DNA of 57,148 nucleotides. It comes from Brevundimonas sp. (GTDB lineage Bacteria > Pseudomonadota > Alphaproteobacteria > Caulobacterales > Caulobacteraceae). How positions within the stretch are numbered: position 1 is the first letter of the stretch; every line of letters starts with the position of its first letter. Below are positions 33,321 to 37,443 of this stretch, one piece after another. The notes beneath the pieces were generated by a model that saw only the letters and a list, made by a program, of their open reading frames with translations, searched no databases and had not been told where the DNA came from. The stretch lies in the NCBI RefSeq assembly GCF_013912005.1, contig NZ_JACESB010000016.1, forward strand, positions 1 to 57,148. Direction: 5' to 3'. The position numbers and the translations under genes are program-made.

Positions 33321-33596
33321 ATGGCCGACGACGCCGCCTTCGACGCCTCGCCCGAGGTGCTGACCGCCACCGCCCAGGGCCGGCTGCGCACCATCATCGA
33401 GCGGCTGGAGCGGCTCGAGGAGGACAAGCAGGCGGTGATGACCGATATGAAGGAGGTCTTCGCCGAGGCCAAGGGCGAGGGCTACGACGTCAAGACGCTG
33501 CGCAAGGTCATCCGCATCCGCAAGCAGGACAAGGCCAAGCGGCAGGAGGAGGAGGCGATCCTCGACCTCTACCTGTCGGCGCTCGGAGAGGTCTGA
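33321..33596 (+). CDS. gapR: GapR (DUF2312) nucleoid-associated protein
   Basis: 91 residues with the full DUF2312 pattern: TAQGRLRTIIERLERLEEDKQAV, DMKEVFAEAKGEGYDVKTLRKVIRIRKQDK and EEEAILDLYLSALGEV. In Caulobacter GapR forms a clamp around overtwisted AT-rich DNA ahead of replication and transcription and stimulates topoisomerases; it is essential or important. The helical, charged sequence matches this dimeric coiled-coil protein. A GGAG lies 9 bases before the start. Its presence supports the Caulobacterales-type assignment of the window. Confidence 0.95.
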   Translation: MADDAAFDASPEVLTATAQGRLRTIIERLERLEEDKQAVMTDMKEVFAEAKGEGYDVKTLRKVIRIRKQDKAKRQEEEAILDLYLSALGEV

Positions 33597-33613: not shown

Positions 33614-33707
33614 GGGGATGAGGGATGAGGGATCAGGGATCAGGGATCAGCATGCCCTAGCCACGGCCTGACTGCCGCCTCATCCCTCATCCCTGATCCC
33701 TCATCCC
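33614..33707. repeat. Inverted repeat built of GGATSAG heptamers
   Basis: The left arm (33614-33650) is a tandem of about five heptamers GGATGAG/GGATCAG. The right arm (33679-33707) is the reverse complement of four such heptamers in a different order. A 28-base spacer separates the arms. The RNA would form a long hairpin between gapR and the next gene. It could act as a terminator or mRNA-stabilising element. The right arm ends 4 bases before the GTG start of the following gene. Confidence 0.8.
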
Positions 33708-33711
33708 GCCC

Positions 33712-34023
33712 GTGAAACGCAAGCCGCCGCTCTCCCCCTTCGAGGCCCAGCGCAAGGCGGCGCAGCGGGCGGCGCTGAATGCGCTCAAGCGGGCGCGGCG
33801 GACGGCCGAGAAGGCAGGCGTGCCCCTGTCCGAGTGGGAAGGGGAGTTCCTCGACTCGGTCAGTGAGCGGGTGAAGACCCACGGCCGCGCCTTCGGCGAC
33901 CCCGAACTGGGCGCGCCCGGACAGGCGCTGTCGGCGATGCAGGGCCGCAAACTCAAGGAGATCGCCGCCAAGGCGAAGGGCGAGGCGCCGCGCCCGCGCT
34001 GGGGACGGCGCCCGAAGGCCTAG
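33712..34023 (+). CDS. Conserved-looking small basic protein, unknown
   Basis: 103 residues, strongly basic, helical N-terminal half (FEAQRKAAQRAALNALKRARRTAEKAGVPLSEWEGEFLDSV), then SERVKTHGRAFGDPELGAPGQALSAMQGRKLKEIAAKAKG and an Arg-rich tail. It may bind nucleic acid, judged only from charge. Start is GTG at 33712. There is no Shine-Dalgarno because the bases upstream are the right arm of the heptamer inverted repeat, so initiation may be weak or leaderless, or the true start may be inside. Codon use is typical of the window. I do not recognise the family. Confidence 0.65.
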   Translation: MKRKPPLSPFEAQRKAAQRAALNALKRARRTAEKAGVPLSEWEGEFLDSVSERVKTHGRAFGDPELGAPGQALSAMQGRKLKEIAAKAKGEAPRPRWGRRPKA

Positions 34024-34271
34024 CGCGGCCGCGGCAGGACGTTGATCTGGATGAAGGCCCGCAGGGTCTGGTCGCCCCCGCCGCCCGGGCGCCGCGTCCA
34101 CGGCCAGACCACGCCCGTACGGGGAGCGTCGGACAGCTCGCGGGCCTCCCGGCGCGCACGGGCGCGGAGGGCGCGCGCCGCCTGGCGTGCGGCCCAGTCG
34201 CGGACAGGATGGGATCGCTCGACCGGAGCCGGCGGCGAGGCGGCCGCCGGGTCGCAGGGGACAGGGATCAG
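34020..34271 (-). CDS. Hypothetical frame downstream of the A7 site (CTG start or -1 frameshift extension)
   Basis: An open frame with strong coding bias (about nine in ten codons end in G or C) and no ATG, GTG or TTG start. It contains VERSHPVRDWAARQAARALR, VVWPWTRRPGG and ends TLRAFIQINVLPRPR. It could begin at CTG 34271, which overlaps the TGA of the upstream gene, giving 83 residues. It could instead be entered by a -1 slip at the A7 run at 34301-34307; that frame is open from the slip site to here. It could also be the true C-terminus of the upstream gene if the A run has lost one base in assembly. No family is recognised. Confidence 0.55.
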   Translation of the reverse strand: MIPVPCDPAAASPPAPVERSHPVRDWAARQAARALRARARREARELSDAPRTGVVWPWTRRPGGGGDQTLRAFIQINVLPRPR

Positions 34272-34669
34272 CTGGCCCGCGCCGCCTCGCGGGCCGCGGC
34301 TTTTTTTGGGGACGCGGGGTCCACGACGTCGGCGCTGTGCCGCAGGGTGTCGGCGAAGGCCGCCGACGCGGCGGCGAACGCCTCGCGCAGGGCCTCGGTC
34401 GAGGCGCTGCCGCGCAGGCGGGCGTCATCGGCGAGGCGGGACAGGCTGTCCAGAGGGTGGTCGGCGAAGCGACGCGTCGCCGATCCGGGACGGGCCTGTT
34501 TGCCGGCCGCCCAGGCGCCTGCGGCGACGGCGGCTTCGGAGACGAGGGCGATCCCCATGGGCGAGGCGAGGAACCGGCCCGCCCGGCCCTTGCGCAGGCC
34601 CTTGGGGACCTTCACCCCGGCGATCCGTTTCGGCAGGACCGCCTGCTTCTTCTTCTTCGACTTGCCCAT
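34268..34669 (-). CDS. Small basic protein of unknown function (zero frame of the frameshift locus)
   Basis: 133 residues: a lysine-rich start (MGKSKKKKQAVLPKRIAGVK), a probable hydrophobic helix MGIALVSEAAVAAGAWAAG at about 37-55, then a helical region (DSLSRLADDARLRGSASTEALREAFAAASAAFADTL). It ends shortly after the A7 run with AAAREAARAS. The ATG has a good GGAGG 5 bases upstream, and this site lies inside the 3' arm of a hairpin at 34671-34710. It may be a membrane-associated or DNA-associated small protein; I do not recognise the family. See the recoding site below for a possible longer form of about 215 residues. Confidence 0.72.
   Translation of the reverse strand: MGKSKKKKQAVLPKRIAGVKVPKGLRKGRAGRFLASPMGIALVSEAAVAAGAWAAGKQARPGSATRRFADHPLDSLSRLADDARLRGSASTEALREAFAAASAAFADTLRHSADVVDPASPKKAAAREAARAS
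34274..34307 (-). other. Candidate -1 ribosomal frameshift signal
   Basis: In the zero frame the codons read CCA AAA AAA GCC, so the heptamer A AAA AAA (34307-34301) is a canonical slippery site. Five bases later an 8-bp perfect stem (GGCCCGCG/CGCGGGCC, 6-base loop; 34295-34274) follows, the usual spacing for a stimulatory structure. The zero frame stops four bases after the stem; the -1 frame is open to 34020. Confidence 0.5.
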
Positions 34670-34670
34670 C

Positions 34671-34710
34671 GGGGCCTCCGTTTGATCCGTTGCAGGATCA
34701 ACGGGGCCCC
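34671..34710 (-). terminator. Imperfect hairpin between receptor gene and the 133-residue gene
   Basis: GATCC/GGATC, AACG-type and GGGGCC/GGCCCC segments pair around a 6-base loop. There is no T-run. The 3' arm contains the GGAGG ribosome-binding site of the next gene, so it could either terminate transcription or hide that site. Confidence 0.5.
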
Positions 34711-34725
34711 CGGACAGCCGTTCCG

Positions 34726-37443
34726 TCAGAACAGGATCTTGCGGAACGTCAGCCGCACCGTCCGGCCTTCGGGGTCGAGATAGTCGGGCTGGTAGTTGAG
34801 GGGGACGTCGGCGCCGGCGGTGGTGACCTCCGGCCGGCTGTCGAACAGGTTCTGGATGCCGAACTGGATCCGCGAGCCCGCGAGCCAGGGGAAGCGCTCG
34901 ACCCAGGACGTGCGCTGGTTGAGATCCATGAAGACGTTGAGGTTCACCGTCAGCTGGTCCGAGAACTCCAGATCCGGGCCCGTCCCGCCATCGACGCGGG
35001 TGCCCTGGCGCCAGTTGGCCATGACGAACGAGCCGAGGCCGTTGCGGAAGACGCCGCCCATGGCCTGGATCTCGTGGCGCGGACTGCCGCCGCGGGCCGA
35101 GGTGGCGGCGCCGTCGAGCAGGTCGAGCACCGGCAGGCCGTCGGCGATGACGATCTCGTCCTGGATTCGCCAGGTGTGATAGATCGAGAGATTGAAACGG
35201 CCCTGGCCCGGCTGCATCGCGCCGCCGCGGCCGCCGCCGCCCATGCGGATCTGGCCGCCGCCGCCGGGGGGGCCGCCCGGGGGCGGGCCGCCGCCTTCCA
35301 TGCGGATCACCATCGGCGCGCCGCCGCCGGGACCCGCAGGCCCGCGCGCGCCCTCGCCTTCGGCGCGCGGCGTCGGCGTGCCGAACGCCCGCGAGAAGTT
35401 CAGGCCGGTGCGCAGGTCCTGTCGCTCGTAGCGCTCGAAGTTCAGCGGCCGGGCGTCGATGGAGACCAGGTTGCCGTCGGGGTCGCGCTCGAACCGGCCG
35501 GGCAGGGCGGCCTCGAGATCGGGGGTGATGGCCGGGAAGGAGGCGATCTCGTCCTCGGTGCGGCTCCACGTCCAGGTCGAGCTGAGCGACAGGTCGGTAT
35601 CCGTCAGCGGGCGCAGGGTGCCGCCGATGCGGACCACCTGCCGGTCGTCGGCGTCGAGGTCGGGGTTGCCGCCGGTGAACCGGGTCACCAGTACGGTCTC
35701 GCCGGTGCGGAAGTCGAACACCGGCACATTGGGGGTGGCGATCAGCGGGTCGTTGAGCTGGCTGATGGTCGGGGCGCCCTGCTCGTCGGTCCAGCTGGCG
35801 AGGAAGGACAGCTTCTCGATCGGCGACCAGTTGACGGTGGTCCCGAAGGTCGACAGGCCGCCGAAGTCGGACAGGTCCTCGAAACCCGCGTCGACGCTGA
35901 CCGAGAGGTCGCCGAGCAGGGGCAGGACCTCGTTGCGGCGACTGGCGATGGGGAAGTTGAAGCTGCTCTGGCCGCTGAGACGGTCGCGCGACTGGCGGCG
36001 GTCGGCGGTCACGCCGCCGCGGGTGCTGGTCGAGTCCAGCGACAGGCTGTCGGCGCCCACTGTGAAGGTCGAGCTGACGTCGCCCGCCGGGAGCGCCCAC
36101 ACGTCGCCGGTCAGGACCAGCTCGGTGTCGAGGCGCTGGGACACGGACCGCGCGGTGTCGTTGGCGATGCGGGCGAAGTCGGCCGGGTCCAGCGCACCGA
36201 ACGGGCTGGCGGTCGGGTCGCCGGCGGTCAGGCGGGCCTGGAAGGGGTCGGCGCCGTAGCCGCGGCCGGTGACGGTGTCGCTCTCGGTGCGGGTGTATTC
36301 GCCGGTGGCGGTCCAGCGCCACGCCTCGCCGATGAAGCCGTCAAGGACGAAGCCGACCTCGGCCTGCAGCCGGTCGGTCTCGCGGCCCAGCGCGGCGGCG
36401 TCGTCGATGAAGCGGTGGACGAGGACGTCGTCGGCGAAGGGCGAGAAGGGATTGGCGGCCGGCAGGCCGAGGGTGACCCCGGGAAGGCCGTTGAAGCTGC
36501 GGCTGGAGGTGTCCTCCACGCTGGCGCTCAGGGTGCCCTGGGTGGTGCTGTTCAGGTCGCGCTTGATCGTGCCGCTGACCTGGGCGCGCTCGGAGGCCGA
36601 CAGCAGGGTGCGGTAGGCGCCGAGGTCGCCGGTGCGCGGGTCGCCGGCGGCGGCGACGAAGTCGGCGAGCATGGGGCTGGTCAGGCCGTCAGGGACGGGC
36701 GTCGCGTCTCCGGGCAGGGCGGGGTCGATCGGGTCGCCGAACGGGTTCCCGGACACGTTGCCGACGAGGTCGTAGGGCGTCGAGCCGCCGTCGCGAACGA
36801 TATCCCGTTCGGACTCATACAGCGGGGTCGAGCGCTCGTACTCGACATCCAGCGACCATCGGTTGGCGCCGGCTATACGCAGCAGGTCGGCCTCGACCTC
36901 GCCCGTGGTGCGGCCGCCCTGGGTCGGAACGCGCCCGGTGACCTCGAAGGTCGTCGAGCGGAAGTCGGCCTTGAGCACGAAGTTCACCACCCGCTGCTCG
37001 GGCCGGTAGCCGAACTGGACGGCGACGGCCTCGGGCAGGATCTCCGTGCGCTCGATGGCCTCGGTCGGGATGCCGCGTATCTCGCGGAAGCCGGAGATGC
37101 GGCGGCCGTTGACCAGGAAGACCGGCTGGAGGTCGGTGCGGCCGCTGGAGCTGCGGGTGATCGGCTCCAGATAGGTCATCAGTTCGGCGATGTCCGACGC
37201 GCCGTAGGCCATGATCTCGTCGGCCGTCAGGGTCACGTCCGGCGGAATGTCCGTGTCGACGCTGCCGCGCGGGCGTGTGCCGGTCACCGAGACCGTGCCC
37301 AGATCGTAGGCGTCGTCCGGCGCCGTGGCCGGCCGCGCTTCCTGCCCGGCCGCCGGCGTCGGCGGCGTCTGCGGAGTCTGCGGCGGCGCAGTCTGGATGA
37401 CGCCGGCCATGAGGCCGGACAGGGCGGTGGTGACGAGCAGCAT
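34726..37443 (-). CDS. TonB-dependent receptor-like outer-membrane protein with Gly/Pro-rich insert
   Basis: 905 residues. The plug region is recognisable (YDLGTVSVTGTRPRG near residue 46, TADEIMAYGASDIAELM, VFLVNGRRISGFREIRGIPTEAIERTEILPEAVAVQFGYRPEQRVVNFVLK). The remainder is a barrel with repeated amphipathic strands ending in RLTFRKILF. The signal peptide is short (MLLVTTALSGLMAGVIQ). A low-complexity segment at about 686-746 is rich in Gly, Pro and Arg (GGGPPPGGPPGGGG) and probably forms an extracellular loop. The substrate is unknown, and no regulator or transporter partner lies beside it. Confidence 0.88.
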   Translation of the reverse strand: MLLVTTALSGLMAGVIQTAPPQTPQTPPTPAAGQEARPATAPDDAYDLGTVSVTGTRPRGSVDTDIPPDVTLTADEIMAYGASDIAELMTYLEPITRSSSGRTDLQPVFLVNGRRISGFREIRGIPTEAIERTEILPEAVAVQFGYRPEQRVVNFVLKADFRSTTFEVTGRVPTQGGRTTGEVEADLLRIAGANRWSLDVEYERSTPLYESERDIVRDGGSTPYDLVGNVSGNPFGDPIDPALPGDATPVPDGLTSPMLADFVAAAGDPRTGDLGAYRTLLSASERAQVSGTIKRDLNSTTQGTLSASVEDTSSRSFNGLPGVTLGLPAANPFSPFADDVLVHRFIDDAAALGRETDRLQAEVGFVLDGFIGEAWRWTATGEYTRTESDTVTGRGYGADPFQARLTAGDPTASPFGALDPADFARIANDTARSVSQRLDTELVLTGDVWALPAGDVSSTFTVGADSLSLDSTSTRGGVTADRRQSRDRLSGQSSFNFPIASRRNEVLPLLGDLSVSVDAGFEDLSDFGGLSTFGTTVNWSPIEKLSFLASWTDEQGAPTISQLNDPLIATPNVPVFDFRTGETVLVTRFTGGNPDLDADDRQVVRIGGTLRPLTDTDLSLSSTWTWSRTEDEIASFPAITPDLEAALPGRFERDPDGNLVSIDARPLNFERYERQDLRTGLNFSRAFGTPTPRAEGEGARGPAGPGGGAPMVIRMEGGGPPPGGPPGGGGQIRMGGGGRGGAMQPGQGRFNLSIYHTWRIQDEIVIADGLPVLDLLDGAATSARGGSPRHEIQAMGGVFRNGLGSFVMANWRQGTRVDGGTGPDLEFSDQLTVNLNVFMDLNQRTSWVERFPWLAGSRIQFGIQNLFDSRPEVTTAGADVPLNYQPDYLDPEGRTVRLTFRKILF

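Follow-up and report, generated by a model that had tools for sequence, protein, structure and literature searches.

Two small reading frames on the minus strand of a Brevundimonas contig (NZ_JACESB010000016.1) overlap at a run of seven A residues, and the locus raises the question of whether they are read as one gene by a programmed -1 ribosomal frameshift. The window, i.e., the whole stretch of DNA that was analysed, comprises 57,148 nucleotides. The two frames are here called A, the upstream or zero frame, and B, its extension in the -1 frame.

Layout of the A-B locus

The elements of the locus, in the order in which a ribosome would meet them, are as follows.

34268 to 34669, minus strand: open reading frame A, from ATG to TGA, 133 aa with a Lys-rich N terminus, as read from the sequence
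34659 to 34664, minus strand: first Lys codons of A, which mark the basic N terminus and form no element of their own
34301 to 34307, minus strand: slippery heptamer A AAA AAA in the zero-frame register, within CCA AAA AAA GCC
34296 to 34300, minus strand: spacer GCCGC between slip site and stem
34274 to 34295, minus strand: 8-bp GC hairpin GGCCCGCG-AGGCGG-CGCGGGCC, a possible stimulator
34269 to 34271, minus strand: CTG in the -1 frame, overlapping the zero-frame TGA
34268 to 34270, minus strand: zero-frame stop TGA
34020 to 34301, minus strand: B, the -1 frame extension, with 93 codons after the shift plus TAG and the C-terminal residues FIQINVLPRPR

A preliminary description made from the letters alone had proposed recoding at this site, and the elements on which it relied were all recovered. 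The heptamer A AAA AAA lies within CCA AAA AAA GCC, a perfect 8-bp GC stem-loop follows it after five bases (arms GGCCCGCG at 34288-34295 and CGCGGGCC at 34274-34281, loop AGGCGG), and frame A, which starts with the ATG at 34667-34669, terminates shortly past the stem to give a product of 133 aa. The -1 frame is open through the site for 93 codons up to the TAG at 34020-34022; its upstream stop lies 117 nt before the heptamer, and from that stop to 180 nt past the heptamer the window copy contains no ATG, GTG or TTG, as had been claimed. The fusion, put at about 215 residues, computes to 216 aa. The claim of a buried ribosome-binding site fared unevenly: it stood for the fold of the window copy, in which the GGAGG has a mean unpaired probability of 0.20, and did not carry over as a common structure to the relatives (0.09, 0.27 and 0.41, with different structures), these figures covering the window copy and its relatives.

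In such high-GC genomes A runs are rare and conspicuous. Neither strand of the window has a second A7 besides the run at 34301-34307, and there are 13 A7 sites (14 matches when overlaps are counted) in the 2.89-Mb genome as a whole. AAA accounts for 14 of the 356 Lys codons in window genes, these genes having been picked by codon-position composition. The combination of six A's, 5-7 bases and this exact 7-bp stem occurs once genome-wide. The length of the open B frame is no evidence in such DNA, since 969 of 2000 base shuffles of B stayed open. A brief look at the other 12 A7 sites of the genome showed one more A7 in register (GAA AAA AAG), at about 580-640 of locus L095 (contig C23, near 209990); it lies close to the stop of its gene with a GC stem directly after it, and is more likely a terminator than a second slip site.

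Conservation within the genus

The search for A in 131 genus genomes returned four carriers, including that of the window, and B came up in the same four among 61 searched. The other three carriers are G010 (contig MGLK01000025.1), G018 and G021, with identities to the window copy of 81, 81 and 71% for A and 78, 74 and 66% for B. The alignment of homologs that the preliminary description had set as the test of recoding showed the run, the stem, the split frames and the tail to be retained in these four genus members. The runs are in register in all of them, as A7, A7, A7 and A6G, the last being the A AAA AAG of G021; the TGA 30 nt past the heptamer is retained, and the -1 frame is open in each to an end of the form FIQIN(V/I)LPRPR. 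In both parts dN stayed below dS in each of the six pairs, at 0.13-0.24 in A (dS 0.43-0.82) and 0.18-0.35 in B (dS 0.43-0.64), and likewise pN was lower than pS in six of six pairs for both. The Lys codons of the slip site are AAA in seven of eight cases, compared to 6 of the 38 Lys codons that precede the site in A, and the residues flanking this KK vary among the A proteins. Synonymous constraint in the overlap (4 of 6 codons versus 23 of 69) was not significant (p 0.12). Common start codons in the -1 frame are absent from the window copy and from G021; G010 has a far-upstream GTG plus later GTG/TTG codons and G018 has later GTGs, with no position shared between the two.

Downstream of the run all four genus loci carry a 7-bp stem, GCCCGCG-N6-CGCGGGC, at a distance of 5-6 nt. 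Its seven pairs are invariant, while the outermost pair is G-C, G-C, C-G and, in one locus, a mismatch. Covariation is uninformative for this stem because the hairpin hardly varies among the four loci (shuffles reached the observed value in 259 of 500 cases). Folded by itself, the 30-nt hairpin of the window has an energy of -19.7 kcal/mol (z -1.32), and those of the four genus loci range from -17.9 to -21.7 kcal/mol (z -1.2 to -3.8). The 81 nt past the run in the window fold no better than shuffles (z -0.58), with a minimum-energy fold that differs from the local hairpin, and when 45 nt are folded, two of the four loci have the hairpin as their minimum-energy structure.

The A-B gene is dispensable, because in G006 and G012 the neighbour genes lie close together and the space for A and B is missing. 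In a six-row tree the tail-less G006 was placed beside G010 and the tail-less G012 beside G021; the idea that the locus arose when A and B were inserted cleanly in one step was dropped, as this pairing needs losses or separate gains.

A runs and tails across the family

A profile built from the four A proteins gave matches in other genera. Twelve of these outside loci, taken from the matches other than the weak ones (L022-L027 and some unnumbered, E > 4e-4), were read past their stops; four of the twelve showed A runs and the tail FRGFIQINLIRPR or variants of it in the -1 frame, and L010 showed a related tail. With a broader profile, for which the best 10 first-look candidates per genome were scored, the 390 family genomes yielded at least 21 A loci in at least 20 genomes, most of these loci belonging to a second genus, perhaps Phenylobacterium. 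When a tail was called by the pattern [FL][IV]QIN[LVIM] within 600 nt of the stop, 11 of the 21 A loci had a FIQIN-type tail and 10 had none. An A run of at least six inside the A frame was present in 11/11 loci with the tail, where it spans A6-A9, versus 0/10 loci without it (Fisher p 2.8e-6, relatedness ignored), and with a single representative of the genus the counts became 8/8 versus 0/10 (p 2.3e-5). In the tail-less L075, for instance, the KK near the end is encoded AAG AAG. The tree of the loci was poorly resolved, three of its 19 inner branches having good support. In the best tree the loci with a tail are dispersed and seven or more changes are required to account for the label, which indicates that the association of run and tail is not the heritage of one clade; the well-supported branches by themselves require a single change.

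A clean -1 layout was found in 9 of the 11 tail loci, namely the four genus loci and L064, L066, L067, L068 and L070 of the second genus, where the FIQIN tail likewise follows the A run in the -1 frame. In each of these nine loci the zero-frame stop is reached 36-40 nt after the run begins. Among the second-genus runs, those of L066-L068 are A9 and include the heptamer A AAA AAA. L064 and L070 have A6, with AAA AAA preceded by G and followed by C and no perfect tandem heptamer; this latter site allows slippage of a single tRNA or a near-cognate pair, and not a perfect tandem slip. The remaining two loci are irregular: L072 has the tail in the -1 frame with the run in another register and the zero frame open for 236 nt past the run, and L073 has a shortened tail in frame 0 behind a TGA.

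Two findings in relatives had been named in advance as speaking against recoding, a continuous reading frame and an unconserved downstream frame. An uninterrupted frame leading from A into the tail was seen in 0 of the 11 tail loci, and the downstream frame is conserved. These observations also bear on the idea that a sequencing error or a recent mutation split what was a single ORF. Errors are common in homopolymer runs, and damage or misassembly may lie behind the irregular L072 and L073. The same break at the A run is, on the other side, found in nine assemblies from two genera with both frames intact, and pN below pS in A and in B points the same way, so that on this sequence comparison an error is practically excluded as the cause of the split frames and a recent mutation is extremely unlikely.

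Searches with B alone reached less far. The one-genus B profile returned G000 and G010 and otherwise weak matches in 299 family genomes, and one weak match (G609) in 398 order genomes, in which the tail motif was absent from the first 160 residues of each frame; this profile is insensitive, because it missed the tails of the second genus too. For A, another family of the order gave one weak match in 229 genomes (L093), whose translation showed no tail motif by eye and which stands outside the table of 21 loci.

The stem does not follow the run and tail into the second genus, as no GC stem was seen downstream of the run in those loci; as far as the compared sequences go it is a genus-level and not a family-wide feature. 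This matters for the suggestion that the A7 and stem are, on the plus strand, the intrinsic terminator of the convergent gene 33712-34023, with the frame layout incidental. A terminator scan did report a plus-strand terminator-like site at 34273-34296 together with the T run (three sites found versus 0.2 expected in shuffles), and the convergent gene is present by alignment in the window, G010 and G021. Against this, 5 nt separate the stem from the T run and some 250 bp separate it from the end of the gene, and in the second genus the run persists with the tail where the stem is unseen. Of the 10 second-genus loci listed, nine are followed on the same strand by a DEAD-box helicase-like gene (the label comes from a Pfam search on L066 only), L064 having an opposite-strand ORF instead. 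Since a terminator also leaves the conserved tail unexplained, we find this account hardly credible, although a double use of the sequence as terminator and recoding site is possible.

A separate B gene, translated from the overlapping CTG by translational coupling or reinitiation, would fit the presence of CTG-A at the stop of A in all nine clean tail loci and the fact that the first 60 codons of the -1 frame in the window copy offer CTG as the only start. A C before the stop is, though, also found in 5/5 tail-less loci that end in TGA; the CTG feature therefore stems from C-ending codons and this alternative loses its main support. An ATG, GTG or TTG occupies the position in none of the nine clean loci, even though one could arise there by synonymous substitution in the last Ser codon, and a CTG start leaves the pairing of A runs with tails unexplained. 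Furthermore, the -1 residues between slip site and CTG read RGG/RGV in seven of the nine clean loci, in both genera; this is a supporting point only, because the same DNA encodes the zero-frame residues. We consider a separate B gene very unlikely.

Transcriptional slippage, in which RNA polymerase adds or drops A's and normal translation then gives the fusion, would account equally well for the run, the tail and their co-occurrence. The runs in the genus are only A7, A7, A7 and A6, and those of L064 and L070 are A6, lengths that favour the ribosome. Six A's followed by G or C make a poor polymerase slip site. The homopolymer of about A8-A9 or more that serves as the criterion for programmed transcriptional slippage is longer than the A7 of the window. 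The A9 of three second-genus loci falls in the length class for transcriptional realignment, a term that excerpts of PMC3711429 give to runs with n > 7 or more. The genus stem lies at a distance that suits the ribosome, as stimulatory structures generally begin 5-8 nt downstream of the slip site (PMC4066793, in extract). Slippage of the polymerase may play a part, above all at the A9 runs, and as the explanation of the fusion we give it a small chance.

Proposed mechanism and known systems

Recoding at this locus has strong comparative support, and programmed -1 ribosomal frameshifting, the reading of the preliminary description, is supported by the layout of the site, its conservation in the genus, the co-occurrence of run and tail, and the -1 tails of the second genus; on this comparative evidence we think it probable that a ribosomal -1 frameshift yields the A-B fusion. 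The locus would thus be one gene in two frames, in which most ribosomes stop at the TGA and release protein A (133 aa). In a minority, the tRNAs on the two AAA codons would slip back by one base along the A run and pair again, probably with the aid, at this locus, of the GC hairpin that follows after 5 nt; these ribosomes would go on in the -1 frame to produce the 216-aa A-B protein with the C-terminal FIQINVLPRPR. We infer that it is the ribosome that slips and that the fusion is the minor product. The last residues of B are conserved, which suggests a C-terminal binding or targeting peptide; present on a minor share of the A molecules, the tail would then serve for docking or targeting.

A more speculative extension, which we put forward tentatively, is that these loci represent one previously unreported family gene whose product and -1 direction have been kept as its slip signal drifted, run and tail being repeatedly lost together. 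The drift would lead from ribosomal A6-A7 sites, with a hairpin in one genus, to A9 runs at which polymerase slippage has perhaps taken over; if true, the loci would form a natural series in which the replacement of one recoding mode by another can be followed. Mobile elements aside, bacterial chromosomes have few -1 frameshift genes that are well supported. The A-B locus offers a test of the co-evolution of a slip site and its extension, with negative controls inside its own family in the homologs that have neither run nor tail. Gene finding restricted to ATG, GTG and TTG starts can overlook such a conserved tail of about 90 residues.

The layout resembles that of E. coli dnaX (tau/gamma), which according to excerpts of PMC3711429 has an in-register A AAA AAR heptamer and a GC hairpin a few bases downstream, and the dnaX heptamer A AAA AAG itself is found in G021. 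The two differ in that the shifted product is the shorter one in dnaX and the longer one in A-B, and in that dnaX has an upstream Shine-Dalgarno-like stimulator whereas none was evident by eye at the window site. The consulted part of PMC5009743 states that Caulobacter gamma is produced by proteolysis and that in E. coli A_AAA_AAA shifts less readily than A_AAA_AAG. The magnesium chelatase fs-genes (a GeneTack cluster) like A-B make a longer -1 fusion from runs of varied length, theirs being A7, A9 and A11 (PMC3711429); the same paper gives 10% for A7, 40% for A9 and 63% for A11 in E. coli cassettes. Magnesium chelatase is, by contrast, a known enzyme with single-ORF fusions elsewhere, while A-B has no family match and an intact single-ORF fusion in 0/21 loci. 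In the phage tail assembly chaperones G/G-T the longer -1 fusion carries a C-terminal extension. This cluster, named in the excerpted text of PMC3711429, is like A-B in pairing a small protein with a longer -1 fusion; A-B differs in having no PHROG family, and A in having no match in phage records or viral contigs.

The proteins themselves gave few clues to function. The 123 residues of A before the shift have a net charge of +14, the most hydrophobic stretch of A has a mean hydropathy of 1.5, and the AlphaFold2 models are helical and of low confidence (mean pLDDT 63.6 for A and 67.4 for B). No significant family was found for A or B in Pfam, NCBIfam or PHROGs, and A had no match in viral contigs, plasmids or phages; a Pfam search on 13 A members returned three weak single-member matches (best E 0.012), and PDB sequences two weak ones (best E 0.14). 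Searches of open-access papers, both general ones and ones on Brevundimonas, Phenylobacterium, Caulobacter and Caulobacteraceae, showed no report of the A-B gene; an earlier listing of it in the GeneTack supplementary lists is possible.

As to the neighbourhood, the gene upstream of A (34726-37443, minus strand) encodes 905 aa, looks like a TonB-dependent receptor and gave no Pfam family at 1e-5. At the other end the stops of B, on the minus strand, and of the convergent plus-strand gene overlap tail to tail in one CTAG (34020-34023). A GapR-type DNA-binding protein is encoded nearby at 33321-33596 on the plus strand (Pfam PF10073, E 1.4e-32), and in L064 of the second genus the gene upstream of A encodes a gyrase-B-type subunit; these neighbours of A are possibly a coincidence. 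Between the GapR gene and the convergent gene, at 33630-33710, repeated GGGATGAGG-like units and their complement were recognized by eye, and in G012 similar repeats take up the gap that follows the receptor-like gene.
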